Shown: piece by piece, positions 6,358 through 48,700 of the stretch
How the letters are laid out: each line of letters starts with the position of its first letter
Numbering within the stretch: position 1 is the stretch's first letter
Assembly: GCF_963576675.1 (NCBI RefSeq)
Contig: NC_088916.1
Location: 51,213,001-51,277,000 of the forward strand
From: Euphorbia lathyris
Taxonomy: Eukaryota > Streptophyta > Magnoliopsida > Malpighiales > Euphorbiaceae
Direction: 5' to 3'
Length of the DNA stretch: 64,000 nt
Program-made: the position numbers and the translations under genes
The notes under the pieces: model-generated
Databases searched by the model: none
What the model saw: only the letters and a program-made list of their open reading frames with translations
What the model was told of the DNA's origin: nothing

Positions 6358-7890
6358 TGTTAAGCCCAAAATATACCTAATATATCATTTATAATTACAT
6401 CAATATTGCTACGAATTCATGCTATTTATACCTGTTTAGAATGCTTTTACTCTCGAATATGTTTCTTTCTTACAAGGTACATAAATATTTGGTAAAATCC
6501 AAATAGGAACGAAAAGAGCTCAAAAACTGAATAAAAACCCTACAAAAGGAGTTAAAAATGACGAAGATCAAATTACACCAAAACGAGGACAAAGACGAGG
6601 TCAGAAACAAAAGAAATGTCAAATTCTCGGTTGAGGAAACAAATTATCGATAGAGAATTTAATGAAAGCCGCGACCGAGAATCCACAATTCTCGGTCACG
6701 ACACGCGTTCTTCAGAAATTCCTTCCATTTGTTCGAAGACCAAATAATTGCTCCCTCATTCACGGACGAGAATTGCCATTCTCGGTAAGTGCAGAAATTC
6801 TGCCAAGCACAACATACACATGTTTAAATTCCAACAAACGCGTTCGTTCAGGTGGATAAAAGCGTCTCTTCGTAGCGGACACGATCCTTCACAACGGACA
6901 CGACACTTCAATCACGACTCTTCAACATCTATAAATAAAGTATTGATTTGAGAGTTGAATATATAATGAGAGAGTTAGATTTTAAGATTAGTGCAAGAGT
7001 TATGCATAAACTCTGACTCGGAAATGAGTCAGAGATTAGAAGTTCGATTCTGTAAAAAGCAATATGATGTACACAATTTGCTTATCAAATAATAGCAAAC
7101 ACAGTAGCGTTTAGATTTGTTCATATTTAGTTTACATTTTGGTAGAGGCTGACCGCATCCCTATTACGAAGTTACAACGAGAAGATTGAGTAGAGAATCC
7201 GCTCTGAGTCTGACAAACTCTAACGAAACCCAAGGAAAGGATTGACAACCCGTTCACTTGCAAGTCGTCGAATGTTTTCATGCTCCTTGTTCTCTGTAAA
7301 CTTGTATCAATTTATATTTCATCTAATAAAGTCCGTTCTATTCGATAGATTTTTATGCAGCACTTTGGTAAAGAATCCGAGGTGGACTGCTGGTGTTTTC
7401 ATTAAAACGTAGTTTAATTCAAAATCTTTACAAGGAAACTTTGTTGAACACTTAGACAATTTATTATCTCGGTAGAGTTTTAATTTGGTTAAGGAAGCAA
7501 TCTAAACCAGTTAGGAGGATTGTTGCGTTCAAAGCCTAAAAATTAGAGGTTCCGTCATTTATTTCATCTTTATAATTTATACAAAGTTTAAAGTTGTTTT
7601 CTTTGCTTAATGAAAACGAATACATTTGTTTACTTTTCTAAAAAGTACTAAACGTTCCTGTCTTGCAAATTCACTCCTAAATCAGAAATATTTCTAACAT
7701 CTTCATACTCTAATCTAATTCTTATTCTAGCAATTTCAAAACCAAATCCGATTTAATGATTTACCTTATTATAAATCTTAAAAGTATATTTAACCAATTC
7801 AAAATAAGTTTTTGTTAAAAACGTTCCCTGTGGGATCGATATCTTTTATTACTACAAGCGTATACCGTGCACTTGCGGAATCGCTCAACA
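6358..7890 (+). repeat. LARD 3' LTR, complete (1533 bp)
   Basis: It starts TGTTAAGCCC after the polypurine tract and ends GCTCAACA, giving TGTT...AACA termini. The last 440 bases duplicate the left edge of the window. A cluster of palindromes (6621-6786) is followed by a TATA box CTATAAATAAAG at 6929-6940, so U3 runs from 6358 to shortly after 6940. The base run after it, ATCTC (7891-7895), is the presumed right target duplication. Confidence 0.85.
6621..6940 (+). promoter_or_regulatory. LARD U3: palindrome array and TATA box
   Basis: Three inverted-repeat units share the core ATTCTCGGT: AATTCTC...GAGAATT at 6621-6660; a perfect 10-bp stem GACCGAGAAT/ATTCTCGGTC with a 5-base loop at about 6673-6697; and GACGAGAAT/ATTCTCGGT at 6765-6786. 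The TATA box CTATAAATAAAG is at 6929-6940. I infer this to be the transcription control region of the element. Confidence 0.65.
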
Positions 7891-7900
7891 ATCTCCGTTT

Positions 7901-9090
7901 ATGGCATCGGAACCATCAACGGTGACTTCCATATATTTATTTGACAAGAATGATGGCGGGTTATTTCTGCGGGCTCGTCAACACATTCCTGCACGTTCAA
8001 CCGAGAAGCCGCAACACCCACCACTGTTTCCTCCACCAGGTAACTTCTCTCAACCCCCTGTCCGCCCCGAATTTGGACCTCCCCCGTCTTACCACAGTTC
8101 CCAGCTACCGTCCACCTTCTACCCTCATACCTCTGATTCTTTTTTGTCCAACCCACCCCAAACTCATGCCTTCAATCAATATCATGAGCAAATTGCTCCA
8201 TCCCACTTCATTGGATATTCAAATACTAATAACAATACTGCTGCTCAAACTCGTTCCCACCCCACTCATACCCAAAAACACATCAAATTAACCCCTAATA
8301 ACTACAAAGCATGGAGAATGGCCATTGTGTCTACTCTAAAATTTCACCATTACTTTGATCACATCACAAGCAATGTCCCACCACCACCCAAATTCCTATC
8401 TCGGGGATGCTTTATGTCTGACACTAATAATACTTTCATTAATCCTGCATACGTTTCTTGGGATGAATTAGAAAATGCTGTGATGTCTTTATTACTTCAT
8501 TCTATCACTGAAGAGGTTTACTCTATCATTACCTGCTTTTACTATTCACATGATATCTAGATTGCTCTTGAAAAAGCGTATGGAATAATTAGTGATAGTA
8601 CACAGTTTCAGTTAGGCATTGAACTATATGCGTTTGAACAGAATGATTTACCCATTGGTGAATATATGCAAAAACTTAAGACTATTCTGGATGATTTGGC
8701 TGTGTCTGGCAACCCATATCCCATGCATCTGCTACATGCGCTACTTTACAAAAATGTGAGTGAAGTATTTAAATCCAGTATTCAAAACCTCATAACTCAG
8801 AAAGGGCTTCACATAGATTACTATGAACTATTTGAGAACCTTGAAGAATGTTGAAGGGATGGTAAAGTCCACTAAAAAATCCAACTTCATGGTCCCTGCG
8901 CAACAACAGAGTTCGCATGAAGCGAATGTGTCCACAATCTCTCCTCCATCTGGTGCAAAAACAAAAACAAAAAAGCGGAGAGGTGGAAAATGCTTTAATT
9001 GTGGTGACCTAGATCATTGGGCAGATAAATGCAAAAGGCCTAAGGGGTTTGCAACACAGAATTCTCGATCTGGTGCTCAAGCACATGTCA
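7901..9090 (+). pseudogene. gag: Copia-1 gag (nucleocapsid), broken
   Basis: Capsid/nucleocapsid protein that would package element RNA. An ATG at 7901 opens a proline-rich N-terminal region of roughly 120 residues, followed by the copia-type motif LTPNNYKAWRMAI that starts the UBN2/Retrotran_gag domain. A TAG at 8558 interrupts the frame, which then continues in register (ALEKAYG... KLKTILDDLAVSG) to about 8850, where a frameshift moves to a second frame. That frame carries a perfect CCHC knuckle, CFNCGDLDHWADKC, at about 8990-9031. The proline-rich N-terminus is longer than usual for copia gags. The ATG lies only ten bases from the LARD end, so the true start could lie further upstream in DNA outside the window. 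Confidence 0.8.
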
Positions 9091-12110: not shown

Positions 12111-13759
12111 TGTTAGACGAGGTGCCGCGGCCTAATCTCCCGGGCTGACCGGGGGGTGGACACCTCATGGCGACGTAAGCGGTGATTGGCGCCGAAAGCA
12201 ACCAATCGTGGAATCAAGCTGCTCGGCAGGACCGGAGCTTGGAGATATGGAAGAGTCGCCACCCACGAATGGGAAAATGAACACCGATCCCTTGCGGGAG
12301 ACCGGTGTGGGTTCGGGAAACTTAGGTACGAGCCGAGAAGGCTAGCTCCTTTCCGGAGAAAGGCTACTAGGCACCCCGACATCGCCCGGTTATGAACCAC
12401 CGGCCTCCTACTCAGCATGTTAGGCGATAACGGACTAATCGTATATTCCTTTAAGTTTAAAATTCATTTGAAACCTTTTCTTTCTCGTTTTGAAAACCGT
12501 TTTGAGCATATATTATTGAAAAGCCACTTTGGTAAAGAATCATCCATTTACATCAGTTCAAAAATACATAGGAAAGAGAGGGGGAGAAGGAAGAATTGAT
12601 TTATTTACAACGTGATTTATGTTCCGTGTTACATACTAATTCTATACTAATTCACTTCCCCAAAACGAGTTCATTTACATGGTTCGCACCTTAATCGCTA
12701 TTGGAACGATTTGGGTACGTTTCAAAACCCCGTTTGATGAAGTTCACCCGAATCGCCGTTGGAACGACTCAAGCGTTTGAAAACATCAAGATAAAAACCT
12801 TTAATAAGAAAACGTGGTTAAACATACAAGTCAATTTTATTTTGTACAAACCCTTTAAGAAAACAATTCAAAACTCTATTATTCACAAAGAAACGATTTT
12901 AATTACAATGTTCGCTTAATCCGTCGTTGGAACGGACTAAGGTTTTAAAACGTGGTGTTTTGAGAAACGATTTGAAATGTCAAGAAAACTCAATTCATTT
13001 ACATTAGGAACCTCTAAAAATTCATTAATTTAAATAATTAAATTGAAAACTCTTTTTGTGATTTATTTTCCCCTTTTCCTTAATGGATTCTCTACTAGTC
13101 ATAATTACAATAATAAACATATTTAAACCAAAATTCACTCCCAAATAAAGCCCATTTGAAACATGGACCCCTAAATGACCCAAAAGAACAAAGGAAATAA
13201 TATAAGCATATATATATACATTTTAATCCAAAAAGGAAGCATGAAATAAAAGTTAATGAAAAGAGATTATATAATACATATATGAAAATACTAAATATAA
13301 TACATTTATACTTTAAACATGTGAAAATAGTAAATAAAACTCCTAGATAAGAAAATAACATTTATTCCCAAAATAGTTTTATTTAATAATAACTAATATA
13401 ACCCAAATATCCCAAAACTATATATATACATAACTAATGTAATTTTAAATGTAAAAAATAATACATATTTATCCACTAATACATCACTCCCAAAACCCCA
13501 AGTAAATATTCTTTTAAAATGAGATTAATTACCATTTAAGTAAAGGAAGAAGAAAAGAAAAGATATATATACATATACTTATATTTAAAAATAAAATAAA
13601 AAATGATATACAAACATCCTAAATAATTATATATACCAAATGTCTAAAAAAATAATTTGAAAACATATATTACATAACTATACATATATATATAAAGGAT
13701 CAAAAGCTCAAAAGTTAAGAAGGAGGGACCAAAACAGTATTTTTTACATTCCAGCAGAT

Positions 13760-13784
13760 TTACCGACGGAAAATCTGTCGGTAA
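13760..13784. repeat. Hairpin in Tat LTR
   Basis: TTACCGAC and GTCGGTAA form a perfect 8-bp stem around a 9-base loop. In element orientation it lies downstream of the TATA box, so it would be in the RNA. Confidence 0.55.
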
Positions 13785-14430
13785 ACAGCAATTAGTGACA
13801 GAAACGGAAAATTACAGAACTACTCCAACTGTTTCCAGATTTATTCAAAAGCTTTAAATTAAGTCTAATTCAATCGTTTTGGATTTTCGAACTCCCAAAA
13901 ATGGATCATAGTCAATAACGGAAGTTCCTAAAACGACGTTTTTATTTTAAAACATTATTCGGAAATTCTTTTAAATTAAAACTTATAATTACAACGTTTT
14001 TAACACCCGAACTACCTTTTTATCGGATCACGGTTCGTATTGGGATATCAAAACGAGGTTTTTTATTTTAAAGCAAAACCGAATTTTATTCAACACGAGA
14101 CGAAAATTGAATAAATATGCCAAATTAAATAAAACGTGATAAAATAAAAGAATAACTAAATAAAAAACTATAACATAAAAATAAATAAAGGAAAGAAATA
14201 AATAAAATAAAAGAGTCTAGTCCTCGGATAATACCTTACATTCGGTATCTGACAGACGAAGCCGATTGATTCCACGAGTCGTGATTTTCCGGTTTTTTGT
14301 GTTTTTTTAGTAAAAATTTAACTTTGGAAAATTTGGATTTTTTTGGGAAAAAAAACATTTTCTCCAAAAAATTGACTTTCTCTCTCTAAAAATGTTTAGA
14401 GTGAGAAAGCTCCAAAAATTCTCCTCCGTG

Positions 14431-14690
14431 CCTTTTATAGGCAAACGGGTCCCCGGACAAATGGGCGACGCCCGAGTAAAATCGGGCGTCGCCCAAAGCA
14501 TGTTGGGCGGCCGCCCAACCTTGCGTTGGGCTACCGCCCAACATTGTTGGGCGGCCGCCCAACAATTGTTGGGCGGTCGCCCAACGCGAGGTTGGGCGTG
14601 CACGCCCAACTGCCGTTGGGCGTTTGCCCGACGCGGTTGGGCGCTCGCCCAACGGCCGCCGGGGCGCGTCTCGCGCCACCGGGCGTGCAC
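14431..14690 (-). promoter_or_regulatory. Tat U3: TATA box with adjoining GTTGGGCG/CGCCCAAC palindrome array
   Basis: On the minus strand CTATAAAAGG (14440-14431) is a good TATA box. Directly upstream, 14463-14690 holds about eight palindromic units: GGGCGACGCCCG, CGGGCGTCGCCC, GTTGGGCGGCCGCCCAAC (twice), GTTGGGCTACCGCCCAAC, GTTGGGCGGTCGCCCAAC, GTTGGGCGTGCACGCCCAAC, and variants of GTTGGGCGCTCGCCCAAC. The arms are constant and the central bases vary. The array begins about 20 bp from the TATA box, so it is core-promoter proximal. Confidence 0.7.
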
Positions 14691-15116
14691 GCCCCGTGCG
14701 GCCGTCGAGCTCACGTTCCGCGCCGTCGGGCGTCCACGCGTCGTGACCACCGAACGTGTGTTCCGCGCTGCCTGGTGTATACGCCCCGTGGCCAACGAAC
14801 GCGCGCCTCGCGCTGCCAAGCTCGTGCATTGCTCGGACGTCGAGCGCGTACTATTCCTGGTTGGATGCGTGCATCCGACGGGCGTCGAGCGCGCGCTTTG
14901 CGTCATCGAGCGGGTGTCCGACTGTCGTCGAACGCGCGCCGGCCGCCGCTAAGTACTCGCACCATGCCGCTAAGCATTCGCGAGCCATCCAATCAACAAC
15001 AGCGACCCACCGTAGCTTATTTATTTTATTTTATTTTTTTGAAACTTCCGGAATCAATCGCTTCCACCGTCTTGTTTTCATGTTTTCGTCACAGGTCCTC
15101 CGACTCGGTGTCTACA

Positions 15117-15353: not shown

Positions 15354-15905
15354 GGGTAAGAATGGCTCAAAAGCAACCTCGGTCGTGGACCGTAGGTAAG
15401 ATGGCTAAAAAGCTACCTCAGTCGTGAACCGTAGGTAAGATGGCTAAAAAGCTACCTCGGTCGTGAACCGTAGGTAAGATGGCTAAAAAGCTACCTCGGT
15501 CGTGAACCGTAGGTAAGATGGCTAAAAATCTACCTCGGTCGTGAACCGTAGGTAAGATGGCTAAAAATCTACCTCGGTCGTGAACCGTAGGTAAGATGGC
15601 TAAAAAGCTACCTCGGTCGTGAACCGTAGGTAAGATGGCTAAAGAGCTACCTCGGTCGTGAACCGTAGGTAAGATGGCTAAAAAGCTACCTCGGTCGTGA
15701 ACCGTAGGTAAGATGGCTAAAGAGCTACCTCGATCGTGAACCGTAGGTAAGATGGCTAAAGAGCTACCTCGGTCGTGAACCGTAGGTAAGATGGCTAAAG
15801 AGCTACCTCGGTCGTGAACCGTAGGTAAGATGGCTAAAGAGCTACCTCGGTCGTGAATCGTAGGTAAGATGGCTAAAAAGCTACCTTGGTCGTGAACCGT
15901 AGGTA
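15354..15905. repeat. 39-bp minisatellite in the Tat 3' region
   Basis: About 14 head-to-tail copies of a 39-bp unit with the wording GTAGGTAAGATGGCTAAA, then AGCTACCTCGGTCGTGAACC. The first and last copies are degenerate (AAGAATGGCTCAAAAGCAACC at the left, AAGAGGGCTCAAGGG at the right). Inner copies differ at one to three positions (AAAAAG, AAAGAG, AAAATC). It lies between integrase and 3' LTR, the hypervariable part of Tat/Ogre elements known to seed satellite repeats. It also lies about 200 bp upstream of the TATA box of the antisense gene. Copies are too regular and lack distinct spacers, so it is not a CRISPR array. Confidence 0.92.
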
Positions 15906-16095
15906 AGAGGGCTCAAGGGCAGAAAAGTTCTTTCTAACGATTCTGAATTCTTTTAAAACACCATTGTCTGGATTTTCTCACTGGAGCTAGTGTCCTGGAG
16001 GTTCGAATGGTTTGGTAGGAATGTCTTTTTGGTTTGGAATGATTCACATTGTCGATTATTTTTCTGTTGGCTGTCGTTTGTATTTTGACTGGTGC
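15906..16095. other. Spacer between minisatellite and antisense promoter
   Basis: No ORF or repeat is seen here. It is the presumed upstream region of the antisense gene and ends at its TATA box. Confidence 0.4.
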
Positions 16096-19432: not shown

Positions 19433-21038
19433 TGATGCGCCCTCACCTAACTCGAGATGGAGACTCACTAAGGGATAAGTGTACCCCGTCGTTATCAAGT
19501 AATAAATTTCTGGTTTAAGTCCAGGTTATCGTCCACAGGATTTATTTCTACAAGTATCAAGCTACTCGATCTCGGATGTTATCTAGGCTTAGGGGGGTTT
19601 TGAGTTTGGTTTGTTTAATTAATCTACTCCTAGGTTGAATTATGCTAATCCTAGCTAAGTTATCTAATTCTAACTAAGTTATTCTAACCCTAACTAAGTT
19701 ACTCTACCCCTAATTGATCTTTTACCAAAGCAATTAACTGAATGAACATGAAGGAATAAGATGATAACAATGATAGAATGTTTAAGCAATTGAATTGAAA
19801 CTAAGTCGCTTGTGTCCAAAGCGATTAACCCGACCTATCCTCCTAAAGTCCCTAGTTCGTGATTCCCTTGTAAGGCCGAAACTAGCTCTAAGGCTCAGTA
19901 ATTTGGGCTTAATCTTCTATAGGGTCGTCAATCCTATAGGCACTGACTAGGTCAGATTCAGCTCGCAATATGTGCCAACCTAATTTTGGGATTATCGAAT
20001 GAGTTAAACCAATCAGACAAAGCGTGAGACAAAGATTAAAACATCAAAACAATTGAATGAACAAAAACTATATTATATATCAAAGATGAATGTATTGTCA
20101 CGAAGTTACAATAAACCTAGCATTCATAGCATGTATCAGAGGCTAGACAGAATATAAAAGAAGAAAAATCCCTTTCAGGGAACCTGTCTACCAATGCAGG
20201 CGTCTTTCTAGGATTTAAGGATGGAGCTTGAGTAATCCTCGGTGAACGGAGCTTCGAAGGTATCTTCAATGGAGGTTTGAAGGATATGGAGGAGGTGGAG
20301 AGGATTTCTCAAGGTGGAAGCTAAGCTAATTACAAAAGTAAAAGATATTTAATTTACAATTGAAAATTCCTATTTATAGACGCGTCTCGAGCCTCGTTTT
20401 GACCTATTTTCGTGTCCTAGTTGGTGTAGGAAGACGTGGGGCCGAACGTGGCTTCGTGGGGGCGGAATTGGTCTTTTTGACCAATTCCCGCAGGGCTGCT
20501 CGCGCCGAGCAGCCCCCTGCTCGCCGAGCAGGCGCCTGGTGGCCTGCTCGGCGAGCAGGCTCCTGCTCGCCGAGCAGGCCTCTGGCGGCCTGCTCGGCGA
20601 GCAGAAATGGCCCGTAGGGCCCTGCTCGCCGAGCGTTTTCGCCCGAAGCGCGCTCGATCCAAGCTCGATGAGTTCCGCGACCTTTTTCGTCCGACTTCAC
20701 ACCTGCACATGCATAAAAACTCCGGAAAACATTAGTCCAAAAGCCAAATTGATCCGTCAATCGCTTATTTTGAGCAAACGCTTCGTTTGGTGCGACTTTT
20801 GACGGACCAATTAGCTTCAAAAGATAACGGAATTCTAATACGCATGCTATTTCGGCCGTATTTGCCTAAATTGATTACAAAACGAGCCTAAACGACGAAA
20901 AGTAAATAGAATGTTCTCAATTCCTAACTAACTCACACAAAAGCATTTAAATGCGAGAATTGCTCGCTTATTAGCCAAATAACTCTAAAAACCGTCCTAA
21001 AACCGTACCCAAAGATAGGGGTTTTTGGACCCCTATCA
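19433..21038 (-). repeat. Gag-only element 3' LTR (1606 bp)
   Basis: On the minus strand it starts TGATAGGGGT after a GAGGAGG purine tract (21039-21050) and ends GGGCGCATCA. It is about 67 bp longer than its partner because of extra palindrome units at 20494-20634. Confidence 0.9.
20371..20634 (-). promoter_or_regulatory. Gag-only element U3: TATA box and CTGCTCGCCGAGCAG palindrome array
   Basis: TATA box TCTATAAATA on the minus strand at 20380-20371. Upstream of it lie: GAATTGGTC/GACCAATTC hairpin (20465-20487); CTGCTCGCGCCGAGCAG (about 20496-20512); CCTGCTCGCCGAGCAGG (20516-20532); GCCTGCTCGGCGAGCAGGC (20542-20560); CCTGCTCGCCGAGCAGG (20562-20578); CCTGCTCGGCGAGCAG (about 20589-20604); and a half-decayed unit at 20620-20634. 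Confidence 0.72.
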
Positions 21039-22754
21039 AACCTCCTCGCACTTAAAACTTTACTTGTCCCCAAGTAAACTAAAAAACTAAACCCGCCATC
21101 ACAAGCAAGCTAGAAAACTTCCCAGTTTGACTAGGTGATTGACACAATTTCGAGTATCTGTAATTACATGCATTCGGAAATACAAAGTAGAGACACGATA
21201 TCCAAAAGCCGCATGTCAATTACAATAGGTCATAGTTTTAAGCAAAAAGGACACATGTTCAATTAAACAAGCTTGAGGGGATCGCTAAGTAAAACACCTC
21301 ACCATAGGTAGTTCACTCATTCACACAATTTTTGGTGGCTAAGGTGTTTACTCTCGGCTTATGTTCTTGCTTAGGATTACGTTGATTTTGCACGTTCATC
21401 CGAGTTCCTCTACTATGCTATATGACTCCGATGATATCAAAAACAGCCTCTAATTGGGGTTGTAATGTGGTTAGAGGGTTAAAGGTACAACAAAGGTTAA
21501 ATGTTCTAGCGCTACAAAAACAAAGTTTAAATGGCTTTAGCAAATATGAAGTGACTGAGCTTTTTATTCATCCCTTATTATTTTCGTTTTGGGGTGTTTT
21601 CTTTGAGACGTTTTTTATTTTTCTAAAAACTGGGGAATGGAGTTCTTCCCTTTTGTTCGTCTCTTTTCTTTTCTTTTTCTTTTTCTGTTTTTCTCTTTCT
21701 TTTCCCTTTTTTTTTCTTTTTGGGATAGTGATGCTCATTCACTTTTTAGTCTTTTGGCTTGCTACTGTAATGCCATAAATAAAGACAAAGCGCTAGAAGA
21801 AAACAAAGGCTCAAGTCGAGCTTTGCAAAAACAAAGGTTAAGCGGCGAACCAAATTGTGGTTCGCAAAAACGGGTTAGAATGAAAGAAAAATCTACAAAC
21901 TACAAAAATGTCGGCTCAAAGGGGCTTCCTAGAGTGGATGAAAAAGAAAAACAAGGTAAAGAAAAGGGTTAATTCTAATGAGGCTGATTCATCGTTTACC
22001 ATCTCAAATCATTGCATGTAGGTTCAACACAGTATTAGGTGCAAAATCTGTAATCTTCCACAAGTCAAGGCATTCACACAAAAATGTCAAGAAAAAGAGC
22101 TTTTTGATGTTCGCTCTTAGGCTCAAATTCAGCTCACAATTCTTTGGGTTTCAATTTTGTGTTTACTAGTTTTCCCCAAACTCAAGTTTAATATCACATG
22201 CCTTCAATTCTTAAGTTATCTACCTAAGTAATGATTTTAGCATTTCATCAAAAGTAGGGTCTAAATGCAAACTGTAGCTCATGCTTTTACAGATATAAGA
22301 GTTGTGTCCTACGCCTAAACTAGTTGTCATGCAATTTTAGATTCGGTTCTCAGCCCTCAAAGACAAATAACGAAGTTTAGATTCGAAGGAGGTTCACGGT
22401 TTTAGGTCCTAAACATGAAAAAAATACATAAACAAAACCTAAAAACGCTAAACTAAACTAGACACGACGCAACAAAAATTTAAAATTTATACAATTTTTG
22501 TAAGTTTGTCTACCCCTCCTCCTCACACTAAAAATATGCAATAAGTTCCAACATTGCATCATAAATCATGAAGTACGAGTGTAAAAAGTTAGGGTGGAGA
22601 AGACAACTTACTGATCGGCCGGGGGGTATGGCCAACGCATGTTGTAGCGCTCGCAGTAGTTTGCCGCTACGTACTCAAGACCCGAAAGCCTTCGGTCCAT
22701 GTTCTGCTCAAAGTTGGTGAACCGTTGGTCCATCTGCTGAACAGTGTTAAAGGT
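21039..22754 (-). other. Gag-only element 3' non-coding region
   Basis: Between ORF2 and the 3' LTR (1.7 kb). It begins, seen from the LTR, with the GAGGAGG purine tract. Polypyrimidine stretches occur at 21640-21730. Short frames on both strands resemble nothing known. This is the usual long 3' untranslated part of Athila-like elements. Confidence 0.6.
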
Positions 22755-23798
22755 TCATAGGTTAAGATCTCGCATTTCTGCCATCATAGTGTTGATGGCT
22801 TGGAACTGGGCCTCCGTCCCCGGCGCTTGGTGTTCCCTTTGGTCTCCTGCTGTCGCAGGTTCTTCTTCCTCGGGTTCCTTGTCCCTTTGTTGCGGACCCC
22901 GTGCTCTTTTTCTTCGCCCTCCGCTGGAACTTGCTCCTCCAGTTGGGTTCCTGTTTAAGACTTCTTGAAAAGTAGATTTCCCCAAAAACTTGGAGTTAAG
23001 CAAAGTAGGGTAAATAGCAATTTCGGGGTTGTCCAAATTTTTAAATTGGCTCTCAAGCAGGTTGGTAACTAAGTGCCCAAGACCTAGGGAACCACGTTTT
23101 CTGCTCGTTTGGCTTAAGAAGCCTTCAAATATGGTCTTAACATTATCCACATGTTTGTGGTTGGCCACGCACCACAGTATGAGCAATTCCGTCTTTGAGA
23201 CTTTATTGCTCTCGTTTTTGCCCAATAAGTTGTGGGCCACAAATTTGTGAACAAGATTGAGAAGTGGGTCTAGGAGAGCGACTGGGCTAGCAGTCTGGGA
23301 GTTAAAGTCTGATATGCCTGTGAGTTGTTCCCAAGCTATATCTTTTGTTATAGGCTTCTCAAAGTCTGAGATCGCCTCTGGGTGATTATGAACTCCCATT
23401 AGGGCTGCTAGTGTGGTAGCATCAAGGCGGTAAGGTTTACCGTTTAGCCTAAAAGAATGCTTCCCACCGCCCAAGGGTAGCTCCTTTTTCCAAGTGGTCA
23501 AGAATTCTATAGTAAAGTTGTGATAAACCGGAGTCTGTGTTGTGGCTAGTCTATACCAGCCGTGGAATTTGAGGATTTCATTGAAATCCTTCTTTAAGCC
23601 TAGACTCGATAAAAAGGTTTGATCGACAACTACGTGTGTAGCAAGGTCTTGCTTGGAAAACCTATCGTACAAAATTCCCTCACGTTCATCAATAAGACCA
23701 AAGGGTGGATCATACTTAGCTTGGAGGCTTTCGTCGAACTCGACCTCAGATTCGGCTTCGTTCTCGACGACGATCTTAGCTTTGCCTTTCCGACCCAT
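22755..23798 (-). CDS. ORF2 in the env position, Athila ORF-1-like, intact
   Basis: An uninterrupted 347-residue frame from MGRKGKAKIVVENE. An upstream in-frame ATG would add 22 residues, but I choose the inner ATG because it follows a splice-acceptor-like CTATTCCTCAG and gives a basic N-terminus. The central part (FHGWYRLATTQTPVYHNFT, then EFLTT and FRLNGKPYRLD) resembles the plant Athila ORF-1 family, a protein of unknown function found downstream of pol in Athila elements. The C-terminus is basic and Gln/Glu-rich (RRKRARGPQQRDKEPEEEE), nuclear-localisation-like. No signal peptide or membrane segment is evident in the body, so an envelope role is not supported. It is intact although gag in the same element is broken. 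Confidence 0.65.
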   Translation of the reverse strand: MGRKGKAKIVVENEAESEVEFDESLQAKYDPPFGLIDEREGILYDRFSKQDLATHVVVDQTFLSSLGLKKDFNEILKFHGWYRLATTQTPVYHNFTIEFLTTWKKELPLGGGKHSFRLNGKPYRLDATTLAALMGVHNHPEAISDFEKPITKDIAWEQLTGISDFNSQTASPVALLDPLLNLVHKFVAHNLLGKNESNKVSKTELLILWCVANHKHVDNVKTIFEGFLSQTSRKRGSLGLGHLVTNLLESQFKNLDNPEIAIYPTLLNSKFLGKSTFQEVLNRNPTGGASSSGGRRKRARGPQQRDKEPEEEEPATAGDQREHQAPGTEAQFQAINTMMAEMRDLNL

Positions 23799-23803
23799 AT
23801 TTC

Positions 23804-24319
23804 CTGAGGAATAGACCAAAAATGGAAGAGTTAGAAAATATTTACAAGTTTCAACATAAACCATTCATAGGCAACAATCATAGCTTTAGGCACTTAGGGA
23901 CTAAACCATAAGTATTTGGTCCCTAAGTCTTTTACCCGAAATTCACAAAATTCATGCAAAATTGAAGATACCCAATGACTAAAACATAAAAAGAATGCAA
24001 TTCACAACTCTATTGACAAGTTTCTAACTATGATTTGAATAGTTGAACTTTGAGCTAAAATGGGGATTTTGCCCAAATTGAGCAATTTCTCCAAATATTC
24101 ACAAATTGAGAATAGAAATCACACCCAAACTATAGATTAATCATTATGTTAACATAAATTGCAAGGAAATTAAGAGTTTAAAAGCAAACAAGACATTAAT
24201 TTGAGAAAAGGAAAAAAAAACAAAACTTAGGTTTTTCTCAAACCTCAAAAATTATCACCCTAATCTAAAATCTAAGTCTATGAACATGTTAGAAATCAAA
24301 AATAGGTAAAGATTCATAC
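23804..24319 (-). other. Candidate 5'-leader intron before ORF2
   Basis: On the minus strand a donor-like AAG|GTATGAATC at 24320/24319 and an acceptor-like CTATTCCTCAG ending at 23804, six bases before the ORF2 ATG, bound a 516-bp AU-rich stretch. Upstream of the donor, 24350-24540 is a long pyrimidine-rich tract on the minus strand like plant 5' UTRs. This would allow a separately spliced ORF2 message. Sequence-based inference only. Confidence 0.35.
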
Positions 24320-24717
24320 CTTATATCTTGAATTCGGGTTAGAATGAAGAATTTGGGGGGTTAGGTTTTGAAGAAGAAAAAGAGGAAGGAGAAGGGAAGA
24401 ATGAAAGAATATGATAAAAAGAAAGAAGAGAGAAGGAAAGAAGAAGGTGGGGAAGGGGATGATGAGTCACCCCCCCTTTTTCTTTTCTTATTCTTTTCTT
24501 TATTTTTTTTTCTTCTTTCTTTCTTTTTTTTTTTTATAATAGAGTGCGGGGGAACAAAGTTTGACAGTATAAATAAACAAACGAGATCAAAATTCAATTA
24601 ACCAAAATAATAAAAGGAAATAGGAGCAAAATAAAAACAAAAAGAAAAGAAAATGCAGAATCAAATTGTTCAAACTTTGGATTAAAAACCGAGGAGAACC
24701 CGATTTCTCCCCCTTAC

Positions 24718-26168
24718 TCAATCCTTTCTCAGGATCTTTGGATTCTTCTCCGTTGTGCTCGGGAGAGAACCCTGTGGCCTTTCCTTCCTGTCCCTATTAA
24801 TCTGAGCCACCTGATTGCTCAAGTCCTTGCAGAAGGCTTCGTTGTTGGCAAGCCTAGCTGAGATCTCCTTCAGAAGAGTGATCACTTCGTCAGATTCCTT
24901 AGGGTGTTGCACTGGCCCTTGATTTTGCTGTTGGTATGGGGGCATGCCAAGCCCCTGCTCTCTATGCTCTTGAACAAATCCGCTAGGAGGTCGGAGCACA
25001 TTCTGATTTGAATTCCCGTAAGAGAGGTTCGGGTGCTGAGGCCTCCTGTAGTTGCCATTGTTGTTGTAGGAGTTGTAGTTGTTGGGGTTACCGTTGTTGT
25101 AGTTCTGATTGTATCTCGGCTGCCCCCAACGTAATTGACCATCTCCACCCCATCTCCAGTGAAAGGGCTACCTGCTTGACAATCCTTTCCATTGTGGTCG
25201 CTGCCACAGTGCACGCAGGTGGGAGGTCGGCTAAGCGTAGCCAACAGTACATCCATCTTCCTACTCAAATCTGCAACAGCTGGATTTTGTTCCTGTTCTT
25301 CCACAGCAAATACCCGCTGCCTAGTGGGGCCGGTGAGCTTCTGTTCTTGTCACTGCACACTCTTTCTGGCCAGCTCATTAATCATGTCATATGCCTCTGC
25401 TGCTGTCTTTCTAAACAAATCTCCACCCGCTGCGGAGTCGACAATGGCTCTGTTTGTGGGTGTCAGTCCGTGATAGAAGACGCTCACTAACTGATGCTTG
25501 GGTATGTCATGATGAGGGCACATGCGCAGCATTTTCCTGAATCGAGTCCAAGATGTGTGGAGTGCCTCATGCTCGGGTTGGTGGAAGGATGTGATCTCAC
25601 CCCTGAGCATTGCTGTCTTCGAGGGAGGGAAGTTGTAGGACAAGAATTCCTTCTCCAACCCTGCCCATGTTGTGATTGAACCAGGCTCCAGTGTTCTCCG
25701 CCATTCCAAAGCTTGCCCTGTCAGAGAGAATGGGAACAGTTTCAGTCTAGCAGCATCTTGGGGGACCCCGTTGGTCCTTGCAGTGTCTGCGCACATTAGG
25801 AAGCGATCCAGATGATCATTCGGGCTTTCATGTGCTTCTCCCCCAAACAGTCCAGTCTGTTGGATCAAGTGAATTATACCAGACTTGATTTCGTATGTAT
25901 TTGTCTGAATGTTTGGAGCAACAATGCCTGACAGATGCTGATGTCGGTGCGGTGCCAGGATCTCACTCATCAGACGAGTGTCGGTTTCTGGTCCGGTATT
26001 CTCAAGGTTCCGCTCATTGTTCTGTTCATTGTCAGTCATCTTGAGAGGCTTGATAGGCTCGATGATCTCGTCTTGCTTCAGCTTTCCGATCTGTTTGCTC
26101 CTGCGAAGAGTACGTTCAAGTTCAGGGTTAAGAGGGACAACCGGTATTTTCGCTGATCTCGTAGGCAT
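24718..26168 (-). pseudogene. gag: Gag-only element gag (Athila type), broken
   Basis: Capsid/nucleocapsid protein. An ATG at 26168 (MPTRSAKIPVVPLN) follows a splice-acceptor-like TTATCTTTTCTCAG on the minus strand. The Retrotrans_gag core has DHLDRFLMCADT, LKLFPFSLTGQALEW and SWTRFRKMLRMCPHH, diagnostic of Athila gag. A TGA at 25350 interrupts the frame, which continues in register into an Athila-type knuckle CVHCGSDHNGKDC (CX2CX3HX4C). A frameshift near 24950-25000 then leads to the C-terminal segment (LLKEISARLANNEAF...PQGSLPSTTEKNP), where an autonomous Athila would run on into protease. Here the frame stops at 24718 with no protease. Confidence 0.85.
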
Positions 26169-26525
26169 ACGCTGAGAAAAGATAAATACAGAAATAAATG
26201 AAAGCTGAAGGGAAATCATACAAATCATACAGTTTTTTACAAGTATAAGAATGGTATAGGTAAACATATACAGACACGTATAGGTGAAGTTGATAGCTAC
26301 ATGTTCGTACAAACGAATACACACAAGCGTAAGTATAAACAAGGATGGTTATCATAAATGAGTATATATAAATAAGTGTATATAAACAAGTATAAACGGT
26401 ATAGATACGTAATAAAAAGAATCATGATTATAAACAAGTATATATGATATTAACAAGGAAAGTATTCACAAAGAATGCCTAAACTAACAAGTCGACCTTT
26501 GGTTCGATATTGCAGAAGAAATAAA

Positions 26526-26543
26526 TCCCCGGCAACGGCGCCA
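26526..26543 (-). other. Primer binding site of gag-only element, tRNA-Asp type
   Basis: On the minus strand TGGCGCCGTTGCCGGGGA, six bases from the LTR, identical to the LARD site at 451-468. It is followed by a leader of about 360 bases to the gag ATG. Confidence 0.9.
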
Positions 26544-26549
26544 AAAACT

Positions 26550-37252: not shown

Positions 37253-38206
37253 TCAAAGATTGGAAATGTAAGAAGCCCAATGTTTGATTAAGACATGAGC
37301 ATTTTCACAATCTGCTTTAAAAAGATGAAAAACATGATCTTCTCCTTTTGTCTCCATTATCTCTGCCTTTCCTTTCCATCCACTTTTCATCAGATTTTCC
37401 TGATAAACTTTCCCCCTATCACACAATATATCTTTCTCTGCAACATAAACAACCACATTCTCACAACCCAAACCCATCAAACTCGGAGCTCCATCAACAA
37501 ACAGGTTTATATACGGATCATCACACCCTTTATCCGATGGACACACCAACATCCACCAATTATCAACTATTGCTTTTCTCACCCCATCATTTCTCTCTAT
37601 CCCAATCGGATCCTTCCCCCAAAAGTACGGATGGATCATAACAATCCCCCGAATCTTCACCTCCGAACCCGAGTCCGATTCCGAGTCCTTGACCCGGAAG
37701 CCCAAATGGTGCGCGATATTAGCACCAGCGCTATCTCCGGCTATGAAAATCCGATCGAAGTCCGCGTAATCGTTGATCCACGGGTCAGTTCCTTCACCGG
37801 GTTTAGATAGACATCGGAAGGCGGCGAATGAATCTTCATATGCGGCGGGGAGCGGGTTTTCAGGGGCTAATCTGTAATTTACGGAGACAGCGATGGCTTT
37901 AGCCTGAGAAACAAGGTGGTTGAGGCAATGGTGGTACAAGGGTTCAGCCGCGGAAGCTATACAGAAAGCTCCGCCGTGAAAGTAGAATAAAAGAGGAAGC
38001 TTTTGGTGATTGGGGATGTTTTGGGGGCGGTAAATTCTGGCAGAGAGGGTTGTTGATGTGGAGATGATGATATCTTTGGATAAAACGGAGGTTTGAGAAT
38101 CGAGACCTGCGGGTGTAAATTCTGTTCCGGCGTATCGCTCGATTGTTCCGTCGTCGTAGATTTTAAGATAAGGGAAAACGTCTTTGATTACTTGTTTCTG
38201 AGACAT
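37253..38206 (-). CDS. CXE: Plant carboxylesterase (CXE, alpha/beta-hydrolase fold 3), intact
   Basis: A 317-residue, intronless serine hydrolase of the plant CXE family, which cleaves carboxylic esters of small molecules. Relatives include tuliposide-converting enzymes, 2-hydroxyisoflavanone dehydratase and the gibberellin receptor GID1. Visible features: oxyanion-hole HGG at 77-79 (FYFHGGAF), nucleophile Ser159 in GDSAGAN, acid Asp259 (AEKDILCDRG), base His291 (GEDHVFHLF). All three catalytic residues are present; the Ser nucleophile and intact His argue for an active esterase rather than a GID1-type receptor. No signal peptide is apparent, so it is probably cytosolic. Length is typical and the frame has no lesions. 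The ATG at 38206 follows a CT-repeat leader and a TATA-like ATAAATA. Substrate cannot be read from the sequence. It is the only clear host gene in the window, with transposons 163 bp downstream and 190 bp upstream. Confidence 0.93.
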   Translation of the reverse strand: MSQKQVIKDVFPYLKIYDDGTIERYAGTEFTPAGLDSQTSVLSKDIIISTSTTLSARIYRPQNIPNHQKLPLLFYFHGGAFCIASAAEPLYHHCLNHLVSQAKAIAVSVNYRLAPENPLPAAYEDSFAAFRCLSKPGEGTDPWINDYADFDRIFIAGDSAGANIAHHLGFRVKDSESDSGSEVKIRGIVMIHPYFWGKDPIGIERNDGVRKAIVDNWWMLVCPSDKGCDDPYINLFVDGAPSLMGLGCENVVVYVAEKDILCDRGKVYQENLMKSGWKGKAEIMETKGEDHVFHLFKADCENAHVLIKHWASYISNL

Positions 38207-38269: not shown

Positions 38270-38397
38270 GGAGAGAAGTAATGAGAGTGACTGTTATGGA
38301 AATGGAAATAGCATGCATTTAATTTTGAATATTGACTTTCACTTCTTTCTTCCTGTATCTGAGGGTGTTGTCGGTGTTTGACCGTTTAGGAGGGTGA

Positions 38398-38563
38398 TAT
38401 TAGAGAATATATTAGTTAGTAGTAGATAACCATGTATGGTACTGTTAGTTCCTCATATCTAGGTCAATCTCTATACTAGTCATTCAATACAACAACAACT
38501 GTACTTTGTATAAATAGACAGTTTGTCATCAATTGCAATTACGCAGAAATACAATTTGTTACA
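38398..38563 (+). repeat. Copia-2 5' LTR
   Basis: 166 bp, ending ATTTGTTACA just before the PBS. It contains a TATA box TATAAATAG at about 38509-38517. The 5' TG is missing relative to the 3' LTR. Confidence 0.9.
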
Positions 38564-38575
38564 TGGTATCAGAGC
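38564..38575 (+). other. Copia-2 primer binding site, initiator tRNA-Met
   Basis: TGGTATCAGAGC immediately follows the LTR: the standard iMet PBS of plant Ty1/copia elements. Confidence 0.92.
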
Positions 38576-41700: not shown

Positions 41701-43231
41701 TGCATTAAGTGATCCAAATTGGTCACAGGCCATGACTGATGAATTTGAGGCTTTAATTCAAAATAAGACGTGGGTACTCGTACCCCGTCCCAAAAATGCT
41801 AATATTATTCGTAGTTGGTGGATTTTCAGGCACAAAACACATGCAGATGGCTCCTTTGAGCGATACAAAGCTAGATTGGTTGGAAATGGATCCGGACAGT
41901 TGGCTGGAGTTGATTGTGGTGAAACATTTAGTCCTGTGGTCAAACCGGCAACAATTAGAGCAGTTCTCAGTATAGCATTATCTAAAAATTGGAACATTCG
42001 GCAATTGGATGTCAAGAATGCTTTTCTACATGGCGATCTTAATGAAACTGTGTACATGCATCAGCCATTGGGCTTCCGGGACTCTCTCTATCCTGACCAT
42101 GTTTGTTTACTTCGCAAATCTCTATATGGTCTTAAGCAGGCTCCTCGGGCCTAGTATCAGCGATTCGCCAATTTTGTCATCAAAGTGGGATTTGTCAATA
42201 GCATCTCAGATAACTCATTGTTCATATACAGACAAGGTACCGATACTGCTTATATCCTTCTGTATGTAGATGATATTGTTCTGGTTACCTCTTCGGATGT
42301 GGTTCAGTCATCTATTCTATCTCAGTTGAATTCTGAATTTGCAATGAAAGACTTGGGTCCGTTACATTATTTCTTGGGAATTTCAGTCACTAGATCTCAT
42401 GACTCACTATTCTTATCTCAAAAGAAATATGCATCAGAAATAATTGAGAAAGCCGGTCTTGCATCCTGCAACGCAGCCAATACCCCAGTGGATACCAAAC
42501 AAAAGCTCAGCATCTCCTCGGGCTCCGCTTACCACGATCCTACTGAATACAGAAAACTAGCAGGAGCTCTTCAGTATTTGACTCTTACCAGACCAGACAT
42601 TTCTTATGCAGTACAACAGATTTGCTTGTTCATGCACGATCCCAAAACATCACACATGGCTGCTCTTAAGCGTATTTTACGATACGTTCATGGTACTCTT
42701 GATCTTGGTCTTACATTGCTGGCATCATCTCCCACTCAACTCACCTCGTACACCGATGCTGATTGGGCAGGCTGCCCCGATACCCGCAGATCCACCTCCG
42801 GTTACTGTGTCTTCCTCGGAGACAGTCTCATCTCTTGGTCAGCCAAACGACAGCCCACACTGTCCAGGTCCAGTGCTGAAGCTGAGTACCGCGGCGTTGC
42901 AAATGTAGTGTCTGAAACTTGCTGGATCCGCAACCTTCTTCTTGAACTTGGCTGCCCAATTGCCAAATCTACTCTAGTCTATTGTGACAATGTCAGTGCC
43001 GTATATCTCAGTGGCAATCCAGTTCAACACCATCGCACCAAACATGTTGAGATGGACATTCACTTTGTTCGTGAAAGAGTAGCTAAAGGTGAAGTACGTG
43101 TCCTACACGTCCCATCTCGTTATCAGATAGCCGACATCTTCACCAAAGGCTTACCATCACCACTCTTCGAAGATTTCCGGACTAGTCTCAATGTTCGGCC
43201 TCCGAACCTTTCAACTACGGGGGTGTATTAG
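38750..43231 (+). pseudogene. Copia-2 gag-pol, one frame with three stop codons
   Basis: A single frame from ATG 38750 to TAG 43229 (about 1490 codons) with stops at 39179 (TAA), 40436 (TAG) and 42152 (TAG) and no frameshift. Gag (UBN2-like, YPTWAALFKLHATAYQVLDH) lacks a CCHC knuckle. In its place is an Arg/Gly/His-rich stretch (RGGRHDGRHHHHGRNYNRGG) near 39545-39605, followed by a Pro/Trp-rich segment. Protease HMDTGATSHM is near 39896-39925; pre-integrase WHSRLGH; integrase SDIWTSP, QCDNGGEF and DGKSERTIRT give Asp, Asp and Glu. RT has LDVKNAFLHGDL and YVDDIVLV (about 42264). RNase H has YTDADWAGC, SSAEAEYRG and VYCDNVSAVYLS, and the frame ends next to the polypurine tract. Apart from the stops every catalytic residue I can locate is present. 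Confidence 0.92.
43215..43223 (+). other. Copia-2 polypurine tract
   Basis: ACTACGGGGG-type tract directly before the 3' LTR, inside the last codons of pol. Confidence 0.65.
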
Positions 43232-43391
43232 AGAATATATTAGTTAATAGTAGATAACCATGTATCTTACTGTTAGTTCCTGATATCTAGGTCAATCTCT
43301 AGACTAGTCATTCAATACAACAACAACTGTACTTTGTATAAATAGACAGTTTGTCATCAATTGCAATTACGCAGAAATACAATTTGTTACA
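43224..43391 (+). repeat. Copia-2 3' LTR
   Basis: 168 bp, TGTATTAGAG...TTTGTTACA, followed by the target duplication GGTGA. Confidence 0.92.
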
Positions 43392-43768
43392 GGTGAATGT
43401 TAAAATGGAGGAGGAGGCTGGACCGGACCTCAATTTTTGTGTGAACTCCTCAAGATGTCGTTTTTGGAAAATACTACTAATATTTCGAATTGCTAATCAT
43501 TTTATCAAATCAAGATCAAAAACTGCCTAAAATATGTAATTGAAATCATTAACTATTTTGGATTGAATTTGATGGATTTGTAAAGGTTAAATAATATTTT
43601 AAATAACTTTAATTCTTGAACTTTTTACATTTGATGTCAATTTAAATGTTGTTTTTTATGAGAGAAAAAACTATAAAAATGATGATTTTGAAAAATAAAA
43701 AATGTGTTTCTATAGTAATATTAAAAATGTAAACTTTGAATGATTAAGCTAAAATCTTATATTATAAA
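43392..43768. other. Displaced upstream flank of the carboxylesterase gene, no gene seen
   Basis: Before Copia-2 inserted, this AT-rich sequence adjoined the carboxylesterase promoter. No ORF or clear motif. Confidence 0.5.
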
Positions 43769-43777
43769 AATATTTTA

Positions 43778-44341: not shown

Positions 44342-44350
44342 AATATTTTA

Positions 44351-44640
44351 ATACCTTTCTCAAAACAAATTATTTTAATACCAATTATAATTAATACTAA
44401 TGTATTAAGCCAATATTTTAATACCAATTATAATTAATGCTAATGTATTAAGCCAATATTTTAATACCTTTCTCAAAAACAAATTATTTTAATACCAATT
44501 ATAATTAATGCTAAAACCTTATAGTATTGATTTTAATAAAAATGTTATATTTTCGTAAAAATATTTTAATACTTTTCTTTAAAAAAAATTATTTTAATAC
44601 CAATTATAATTAATGCCTAAAACCTTATATTATTGATTTT
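44351..44640. repeat. Four copies of an AT-rich repeat beside the foldback
   Basis: ATTTTAATACCAATTATAAT occurs at about 44373, 44415, 44487 and 44591, interleaved with GTATTAAGCCAATATTTTAA copies that resemble the end of the foldback plus its flank. Confidence 0.65.
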
Positions 44641-46545: not shown

Positions 46546-46631
46546 ATATTCTTTTTGTAACTGTGTTAGTAAAACATTAATATCTTAGACGTAATTGATG
46601 TTTGGAAGATACTATATGACAAGTATAATAG

Positions 46632-47130: not shown

Positions 47131-47138
47131 TATAATAG

Positions 47139-47497
47139 TATAACTAGCTTTTTTTCAAATTTTCGGTAACGTAGGGCTATATTGCATAGAAACTTTAGGG
47201 TTAAATTTAAATCAATTTGTTGGTTAGAACTAAATGGGTGATTGTTTCAACTTTTCAGATGAGCGTTTACCGTTTCACTCCAAACCGTGGAAAATATAAT
47301 ATTTGGTTAGGCATATATAACTGCAACATTTAGCATTTTTTTGAGAAACTGCAACATTTTGAAGCTTTTCACCAAAAGCTCATTTCTTAGCATTTCTTGA
47401 ACAATTATTTGTGCTTATTTCTTATTAACAAAGCTATCCTTCTTATTTTCACAAAATGTATTTCTTCTTTAACACTATTTCTATTTCTATCTCTATA
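47139..47497. other. AT-rich spacer, no gene seen
   Basis: No ORF or repeat recognised. The last bases are the 5' target duplication of the LINE-like insertion. Confidence 0.5.
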
Positions 47498-47829
47498 ACA
47501 TAATTATCTAAAGGACGTAAGGGTTGTAGAGAGAGAGGCTCCTCCTTCTCTCTATACTTTTTTCTTCTCCGCTGCTCCTTCTTCTCGAGCTTTTCGTCGT
47601 TGCCGTCACAGTCACTGTCAGCTTCTCGGTTCTTGTTTTCTATTCAGGTTCCTTTAGAGGAGGAACAGAAAGTTCCTTCTTCCTCCTCCCATTTATCTTT
47701 TTAGTCTTTGGTTTTTTTAGTTTCAGATTTTGTTAGTTTGAAGTCTATATACTTTCTCGAATTTCTTTTCTATCAGATCTACATCTGTTAGCTATACTTT
47801 TATCTTTTATTCTTTTTTCGGTCTTAGCA

Positions 47830-47982
47830 ATGGCGGAAAAGGTTCATCTTATCCGCAGATCTATAGATCTGCGTGGTTGCAAAAAGAGAAAGGACTTAGA
47901 TCCGAATTTCTGGAAGAGGCTAAAAGATAAAGAATGGATTACAACTATTTTTTTATGGGATTCGACTACGAGGAGTATATGA
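47830..47982 (+). CDS. Small ORF (50 aa) in the LINE-like insertion
   Basis: MAEKVHLIRRSIDLRGCKKR at the start, basic, ends with TGA at 47980. It follows a roughly 310-nt CT-rich leader. Not recognised; it may be the remaining start of a LINE ORF1 or of a host transcript. The context (first ATG after a plant-like leader) is the only support. Confidence 0.3.
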   Translation: MAEKVHLIRRSIDLRGCKKRKDLDPNFWKRLKDKEWITTIFLWDSTTRSI

Positions 47983-48166
47983 TTTCTATTGTTATTGTAT
48001 TTGTACCCTTTATGGTTTTTATTGCTCTTTGTAGTTATTGGCCCAAAATAAAATAAATTTTATTTTCATGTATATAGAAAGCTTGGGTTTAATTTTAGGA
48101 TATAGTTTACATTTTATCTGGAAAATAATAAAAATAAAAAGTATACATTAATAAATTCACTCCAAA

Positions 48167-48519
48167 TACGCGAGGCGTATATTTTTATACGCGGGGTGTA
48201 TACCACTTCCGAAGACGTTCAGTTTCAGAGACTCAACTACGCGGGGCGTAGTTACCGATACGCAGGGCGTCCTTCATTTTACGCGGGGCGTACTTGTTTA
48301 CGCGGGACGTACTCTCCAATACGCCACGCGTAAGACGCATCCGCAGAGTGTTCCAAGATCAGAGGCTTGAATACGCGGGGCGTATCCACCAATACGCAGG
48401 GCGTATTCCTTCACGCGGGACGCGACACCAGAGACGCCACGCGTGGAAACCATCAATGAAACGCACTAGGCCTAGTGTCCGCCAACACGCAGGGCGTAGT
48501 CGGACATACGCGGGGCGTC
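48167..48519. repeat. Array of 13 TACGCRGGGCGTA palindromes in the solo LTR
   Basis: Units at about 48167, 48188, 48238, 48259, 48280, 48299, 48320, 48372, 48393, 48412, 48433, 48486 and 48507. The consensus is TACGCGGGGCGTA with arms TACGC/GCGTA; two units read TACGCCACGCGTA or similar. Spacing often falls near 20-21 or 52-54 bp. Each unit carries three CpGs in an otherwise AT-rich sequence. Confidence 0.85.
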
Positions 48520-48687
48520 AACTCTCTCTCGGCAGCAGTTGGAATTGGTCAATGGAAGTTAATGGAAGTTGAGGTAGTGGGATGATGTGGCATTGGTAGT
48601 TGGAGGAAGTTAAGGAATTAGTTAAGTTAGTTAGTGACTATTTACCAAAATACCACTGACTATTTACCAAAATGCCACTCTAAAAAA

Positions 48688-48700
48688 CTATAAATAGACC
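48688..48700 (+). promoter_or_regulatory. TATA box of the solo LTR
   Basis: CTATAAATAGACC, about 170 bp downstream of the palindrome array, followed by a leader rich in TTCTAGTTCTTAG repeats. Confidence 0.65.

Follow-up and report, generated by a model that had tools for sequence, protein, structure and literature searches.

Arrays of short palindromes upstream of the TATA box in four LTR retrotransposon families of Euphorbia lathyris: putative repeated protein-binding sites

Here we describe arrays of short, CpG-rich palindromes in the long terminal repeats (LTRs) of four retrotransposon families found in a 64,000-nucleotide stretch of the Euphorbia lathyris genome (NC_088916.1, positions 51,213,001 to 51,277,000; hereafter the window). 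The families are represented by a large retrotransposon derivative (LARD), a Tat element, a gag-only element of Athila type and a solo LTR. In each, the array lies in U3 upstream of the TATA box; arrays recur in most genomic copies, the palindromic units are kept whilst the linkers between them are free to vary, and in one family the units are helically phased. We think that these arrays are probably promoter-proximal control regions, built from repeated, two-fold-symmetric putative protein-binding sites. Palindromic arrays are already known from Sirevirus LTRs; what is new here are the Ty3/gypsy hosts, the helical phasing and the paired changes between palindrome arms.

Results

In the Tat element nine units of the form TTGGGC(n3-6)GCCCAA (at most 2 mismatches) occupy 14462-14653 on the reverse strand, with centres spaced 21-24 bp apart and a TATA box at ~14439. 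The gag-only element carries six units of CTGCTCG(n1-3)CGAGCAG (at most 3 mismatches) in its 3′ LTR (20493-20636, reverse strand; TATA ~20378) and an array 67 bp shorter in its 5′ LTR (27613-27686, reverse strand). A hairpin, GGAATTGGTC-n5-GACCAATTCC, lies between array and TATA box at 20464-20488 and again at 27581-27605, on the same strand. The solo LTR has 13 units of TACGC(n3)GCGTA at 48167-48519 on the forward strand (TATA ~48689); three units of the automatic table were judged spurious and dropped, and the 13 positions were set by hand for the phase test below. The LARD U3 contains palindromes of the form ACCGAGAAT(n4-5)ATTCTCGGT between 6623 and 6786 on the forward strand (half-site at 6623, units at 6674-6696 and 6765-6786; TATA ~6930), and the same motif is found inside the element, also on the forward strand, at 1961-1982, 2018-2039 (3 mismatches) and 4745-4767. 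All four U3 arrays stand upstream of a CTATAAA-type TATA box, their near edges ~23 to 170 bp and their far edges ~214 to 522 bp from it. An earlier note on this DNA had reported these arrays some 20-520 bp upstream of TATA, and both the coordinates and the distances are borne out. For the Tat element they apply to the 3′ LTR only, since the 5′ LTR in the window (37089-35674) is without U3, and the array in the gag-only 5′ LTR was missing from the earlier list.

Inverted-repeat content of each region was compared with 500 dinucleotide shuffles by three measures: coverage, centres and paired bases. The Tat U3, both gag-only U3s and the solo U3 show an excess that no shuffle reached on any measure. 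The excess in the LARD U3 is weak, being reached by 5, 23 and 9 shuffles, respectively; with a GC filter the counts are 0/500 for the 3′ LTR and 2/500 for the 5′ LTR. Palindrome density therefore exceeds that of composition-matched shuffles in all four U3s, in LARD weakly, as the earlier note had supposed. The R-U5 regions of Tat, gag-only and solo LTRs showed no enrichment against 500 shuffles, and the Copia LTRs in the window no inverted repeats by the same measures. When tiles of the window were ranked by paired bases, the top 14 of 638 all overlapped the five U3s of the four families, one of them (14601-14900) being reached by 2/100 shuffles. Lower-ranked tiles outside the U3s also beat their own shuffles (e.g. 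3401-3900 and 47601-47900). Moreover, the words themselves are over-represented in the whole window: ATTCTCGGT occurs 7 times against 0.46 in shuffles, TTGGGCN3-6GCCCAA 6 times against 0.02, CTGCTCGNCGAGCAG (at most 3 mismatches) 8 times against 0.65, and TACGCNNNGCGTA (at most 2 mismatches) 22 times, 12 of them inside the solo array, against 9.5. In no case did any of 100 shuffles reach the observed count.

The ratio of observed to expected CpG (CpG o/e) is 1.74 in the LARD array, 1.18 in Tat, 0.80 and 0.74 in the two gag-only arrays and 1.55 in the solo LTR. Over the five U3s it ranges from 1.29 to 1.49, compared with 0.23-0.24 in the Copia LTRs. Array GC spans 0.43-0.71, and the description of all arrays as GC-rich islands fails for LARD, which lies at the lower bound despite its CpG content. 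A protein search with the open reading frame (ORF) spanning the Tat array gave no match.

Other copies in the 1.02-Gb genome were located from flanking sequence, the array itself playing no part in their choice. A first look gave 1024 to 3445 candidate places per family, of which the best 40 each were scored, such that old copies are under-sampled; we then fetched 20 of the 39 other scored places for each of gag-only, solo and Tat and 20 of 38 for LARD (80 copies in total, some of which are probably two LTRs of one element and thus not all independent). The expectation that arrays would be present in other family members held for most copies read. All 20 Tat copies carry an array of 8-19 half-sites that exceeds all 100 shuffles, and all 20 solo copies have 11-13 units under a loose criterion (one unit of copy L063 looks spurious). 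Among gag-only copies 19/20 have an array of 4-9 units, nine of them in the more distant copy L001, and the remaining copy (L036) has one unit only. LARD copies have 2-3 units in 20/20 cases at up to 4 mismatches of 18, and two units in 16/20 and one in 4/20 at up to 2 mismatches; 19/20 were reached by at most 1/100 shuffles and one (L092) by 14/100.

Within the Tat array mean pairwise identity is 0.931 for arms and 0.359 for linkers, the latter lying within the range of shuffled linkers (mean 0.322, maximum 0.419). The solo family comprises two U3 lineages (21 copies), which differ at 16/129 arm and 41/182 linker positions (arms versus linkers, p 0.026). Centres differ at only 5/39, and it is therefore the entire 13-bp word, not the arms alone, that is kept. 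It is the palindromic units and not the intervening DNA that are conserved, with linkers near chance, which supports the earlier note. Its statement that arms are constant and the centre varies describes Tat and LARD but neither the solo unit, whose centre (mostly RGG) is kept as well as its arms, nor the gag-only window copy, where 5/6 centres are a single C or G, giving one word in alternating orientation.

Spacing is also constrained. Solo centres are separated by gaps of 19, 21 and 50-53 bp, with a helical phase of R 0.887 near 10.3 bp (0/5000 jittered nulls). The phase reaches R 0.932 at 10.25 bp in both solo lineages, though some units differ between them; unit positions typical of each lineage were set by hand for this test. 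Tat spacing is phased as well (p 0.0012). Solo units 4-7 and 8-11 follow the same variant order with near-identical gaps (21, 19, 21, 52 versus 21, 19, 21, 53), and unit identity is highest at a lag of four units (0.85 versus 0.77-0.79), which we read as one probable block duplication. Between these blocks the units are identical at 44/52 positions, whilst the four linker pairs are at chance (60 to 482 of 500 shuffles did at least as well).

A relative of the gag-only element on contig C1 (30,088,750) shows 70% identity over 1402 columns. Here the half-sites are AGCTCG (3) and GAGCT (2), as opposed to TGCTCG (5) and CGAGCA (7) in the window copy, with the same position altered in both palindrome arms. 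Similarly, GGTC/GACC in the array-side hairpin has become AGTC/GACT (read by eye), with pairing kept. A relative of the solo family (72% over 1079 columns) has a single palindrome of different sequence ~306 bp before TATA. Because both relatives keep palindromes with altered words, symmetry appears to outlive sequence, at least in these two relatives from one sample. We also observed that at C1:~30087190-30090418 a gag-only-family LTR is nested in a solo-family relative, the palindromes of both differing from the window copies.

Unit number changes too. Two LTRs of one element are expected to be identical at insertion; in the gag-only element one LTR has 67 bp more of array than the other, against 98.8% identity over the rest, and we read the difference as the likely gain or loss of whole units (46 + 21 bp). 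In the solo family unit number varies little between copies. Of the differences counted between the gag-only U3s, 8/8 are transitions and 6 fall at CG or CHG sites (three array positions were omitted as misaligned); in R-U5 transitions make up 4/8, a contrast that is only suggestive as a methylation footprint (p 0.077).

The earlier note had put forward such arrays as a possible general LTR feature. As a control we used 200 kb of contig C1, where 17 repeat matches yielded 9 LTR pairs after 6 matches of 100-200 bp were dropped and 2 of the 11 left were judged to be tandem duplications, without TG..CA ends and a target site duplication (TSD). For 6 pairs the test covered both LTRs and for 3 a single LTR, with approximate boundaries in P8 and P9. 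None of the 9 pairs in this stretch has an array, and we reject the general feature. The best 300-bp tile of control LTRs holds 0-16 paired bases, compared with 23 in LARD, 33-34 in the gag-only 5′ LTR and the solo LTR and 114-133 in the gag-only 3′ LTR and Tat. Relatives of the window families, outside the nine, also lie in the control stretch and reach 28 (gag-only family) and 11 (solo family). No array was found in five Sirevirus-like Copia control pairs, which we take to be Sireviruses from their primer binding site (PBS) and polypurine tract (PPT) patterns and not from a reverse transcriptase (RT) tree. Two results temper this reading of the controls: in SIRE_P0 and SIRE_P6 both LTRs, four in all, have a best tile that exceeds all 200 shuffles, and in another five control LTRs just 1 to 4/200 shuffles reached the observed value. 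In three of the four the tile is one conserved 10-bp-arm palindrome, GCTGAGTACT..AGTACTCAGC, after a TATA box; that of SIRE_P6_3 consists of two short palindromes. The conserved palindrome is common to 4/5 Sirevirus-like 5′ LTRs (C1:30.0-30.2 Mb), ~205-230 bp downstream of a TATA box at 591-727 of the LTR.

The CGCG box bound by CAMTA factors, VCGCGB, had been suggested for the solo unit. It is enriched in the solo U3 (9 versus 2.08 expected; 0/300 shuffles) and weakly in LARD (2 versus 0.42; 14/300) but not in the Tat U3 (12 versus 13.07) or the gag-only U3s (1 versus 3.79 and 1 versus 2.40). As a factor common to all four families it is rejected.

Discussion

The four families had been considered unrelated and their arrays convergent. 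LARD and the gag-only element have a PBS stretch in common, which we presume to be that of Athila, and their PPT regions align with a score of 35, where the best of 500 shuffles scored 34, a borderline result. Neither has RT, and we place both only tentatively with Athila by the ATHILA Pfam match of the gag-only element together with the common PBS; the solo and LARD carriers have no protein to type them by. Tat is described as the sister clade of Athila within OTA (PMC6317226). That the four are unrelated is therefore not supported, and common ancestry with turnover of motifs is at least as likely as convergent origin.

Nor are the arrays without precedent, as the earlier note had believed. 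LTRs of Sireviruses (Ty1/copia) contain repeated motifs (RM boxes) described as palindromic, as forming CpG islands and as lying before TATA (Bousios 2010, PMC2829016). As in that account, we find many copies of a short CpG-rich dyad palindrome just upstream of a conserved TATA box, in Tat, gag-only and solo LTRs (LARD has about two units), and a motif that varies by element, some elements having an interior cluster, as LARD does. However, judged by protein matches (Tat, gag-only) the carriers here are not Ty1/copia but Ty3/gypsy elements of Tat and Athila type, and the CGG-CCG core reported for Sireviruses is not invariant: the arms are TTGGGC, CTGCTCG, TACGC and ACCGAGAAT, and only LARD has CCG..CGG, in reversed order. 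Del (Tekay) chromoviruses, which are Ty3/gypsy, are likewise reported to have a CpG-rich island of variable length in the 5′ part of the LTR (PMC4029996), but that text never uses the terms 'palindrom', 'inverted' or 'tandem repeat', and the island is given there as absent from the eudicot Del group. Family-specific short motifs in dense, fast-changing arrays within non-coding DNA are also described for VANDAL transposons, whose VANC anti-silencing proteins bind them and remove silencing (PMC5735166, PMC10398659); there, in contrast, the element is a DNA transposon, the motif (YAGTATTAY) has one orientation and binding is demonstrated, whereas our arrays are known from sequence alone. Tandem U3 repeats of cis-elements, sometimes palindromic, are described for Tnt1 and other LTRs (PMC3601003, PMC10760457), which belong to other lineages than the carriers here. 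In the open-access literature searched we found no description of palindromic U3 arrays in Tat or Athila-type LTRs, and five exact array words looked up in its texts gave no match. These data take palindromic promoter arrays beyond a single Copia genus, into Ty3/gypsy lineages abundant in this genome. They also provide a sequence signature to test on other assembled plant genomes: conserved units amid free linkers, helical phase and paired changes.

Units that stay constant amid free linkers, together with constrained spacing and paired changes, would be expected of symmetric protein-binding sites, and we infer that selection acts on such sites. A dimeric protein, or monomers in pairs, may bind the units, several bound molecules may cooperate, and binding may drive or protect transcription of the element. 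Units would be gained when whole units or blocks are duplicated and lost when they are deleted, whilst selection on elements that are still copying would maintain the units and, in some families, their spacing. Between families the motif would turn over, both arms changing jointly.

A number of observations weigh against this proposal. The paired changes come from a single relative, in which the aligner misregistered the second hairpin arm, and were read by eye. Part of the pattern could also arise if recombination homogenised the arms. Unit number ranges from 1 to 9 among gag-only copies with near-identical anchors, gag-only units are not phased (p 0.73), and Tat centres vary from 3 to 6 bp, which is awkward for a rigid dimer. 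In the solo family the block duplication is read only from unit order and gaps, the repeated block and shared units make the gaps partly non-independent, and the two lineages share most units, so that their phases are not independent. The arm-linker contrast between them is modest (p 0.039 and 0.143 for the halves), and MAFFT misregistered their first units, which weakens the counts. LARD has only about two units (two palindromes and a half-site), and its R-U5 is mildly enriched too (8, 39 and 24 of 500 shuffles for coverage, centres and paired bases). Lastly, control pair P8 has the PBS stretch of LARD and the gag-only element and is without an array; therefore this PBS lineage is not always array-bearing.

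Some of these points suit a mutational by-product, whereby palindromes expand via slippage, hairpin or cruciform repair or RT template switching with no benefit to the element. The 67-bp difference between two LTRs of one gag-only insertion, the 1-9 units among close copies and the alternating orientation of the window units would all follow. Such a process leaves unexplained the random linkers of constrained length, the phase in both solo lineages, the units kept amongst linkers at chance and the placement upstream of TATA, and we consider it unlikely. U3 is also transcribed, at the 3′ end of genomic RNA, where hairpins could affect RNA fate or feed small-RNA silencing, a role put forward for maize Sireviruses. 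Fold z-scores are strong for Tat (-13.7) and gag-only (-12.4) but weak for the solo LTR (-3.1; 1/100 shuffles) and LARD (-2.0; 7/200). The paired changes in the gag-only relative keep pairing, and palindromic clusters of maize Sireviruses are reported to attract an excess of small RNAs (Bousios 2016, cited in PMC10760457). However, the solo unit keeps its non-pairing centre too, and phased DNA spacing is unexpected for RNA hairpins; a role in RNA structure thus seems quite unlikely. We regard it as very improbable that the arrays are a CpG device, in which symmetric CpGs would serve as a methylation sensor or nucleosome-excluding island with no specific protein site. Whilst CG is present in every family's motif, U3s far exceed Copia LTRs in CpG o/e, solo gaps fit 10.25 bp and the gag-only U3 differences are all transitions, mostly at CG or CHG sites, the contrast of these transitions with R-U5 reaches only p 0.077, the Tat R-U5 has a CpG o/e of 1.36 without palindromes, LARD is not GC-rich and family-specific motifs are left unexplained.

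If the arrays are indeed repeated symmetric binding sites, the proteins that bind them might be encoded by the elements. By analogy with VANC, the arrays could be targets of sequence-specific proteins through which a retrotransposon activates or un-silences its own family, a possibility that we hold to be doubtful. It would account for joint arm changes and for family-private motifs, which are a poorer fit to host factors shared between families. Extra ORFs downstream of the polyprotein are noted for the SIRE and OTA lineages (PMC6317226); these are the lineages now found with palindromic U3 arrays, which is consistent with an element-encoded protein. CpG blocks in Del/Tekay LTRs and the lack of an array in P8 speak against it. 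For the gag-only array, the product of the extra ORF (PF20167/ATHILA) might be the partner, and LARD, in which no gene was found, would have to borrow a relative's protein. A basic RKRxR stretch is kept in 6/6 aligned proteins of this ORF. Its structure prediction (mean pLDDT 35.3) was of no use, its best match to PDB sequences had an E of only 1.1, and we found no literature on DNA binding by PF20167 proteins. Were the binding protein element-encoded, plant retrotransposons would own private activation or anti-silencing systems.

Further features of the window

The gag-only element (19433-28088, reverse strand; TSD AACAC) interrupts the pol gene of the Tat element, between RNase H and an aRNH-like stretch. 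It has a gag ORF (Retrotrans_gag match) and the extra ORF of 369 aa (22755-23864, reverse strand; PF20167/ATHILA match, 9.4e-08), whose relatives are all from Euphorbia lathyris among the matches listed (5/5 and 6/6). A database protein named GDSL esterase/lipase also has PF20167/ATHILA domains and is probably a gene model fused to a retrotransposon ORF.

The Tat element codes for RT-RNase H, followed by the aRNH-like stretch and integrase (RVT_1/RT_RNaseH and integrase matches). The FFDGA stretch, which we take by eye to be aRNH-like from its motif, resumes in frame past the gag-only insertion site with integrase next (19431-18054, reverse strand), and the aRH that characterises the Tat clade is thereby found. 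The 3′ LTR (TGTAGACACC..TCTAACA; 12111-15116, reverse strand) is ~3.0 kb long; the 5′ LTR ends abruptly at 37089, ~1.6 kb short of this length, and an esterase-like ORF (37253-38206, named by eye) begins ~160 bp away. Between pol and the 3′ LTR lies a tandem repeat of 39 bp in 14.3 copies (15355-15913), and a comparable repeat is described for Retand elements (PMC11963269). None of four antisense pieces of this 3′ region matched Pfam at E up to 10 in a search for a TRP28-like ORF, and scans of viral contigs with Tat pol and gag as queries gave no match.

The 3′ LTR of LARD (TGTTAAGCCC..CTCAACA) spans 6358-7890 on the forward strand, with TSD ATCTC; its 5′ LTR starts ~1.1 kb beyond the left window edge, and a gene search in the element at the left of the window found none. 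An insertion within LARD at ~2429-3695 has an 8-bp direct repeat, ATACAAAC, at each end and hAT-like ends (by eye). The segment 1454-1662 is self-complementary, with 84% identity to its own reverse complement, and resembles a miniature inverted-repeat transposable element.

The solo LTR occupies 48036-49996 on the forward strand (TSD GTAGT at 48031-48035 and 49997-50001), and the short LTRs of the Copia element lie at 38392-38567 and 43221-43394. Lastly, 53225-62173 forms a large inverted duplication, in which parts of 53.2-58.4 kb match 58.4-62.2 kb at 80-93% identity. It contains a direct repeat (95%), has strong and opposite GC skew (-0.69 at 55-56 kb versus +0.64 at 59-60 kb) and is flanked by ORFs that by eye resemble the RT of long interspersed nuclear elements.

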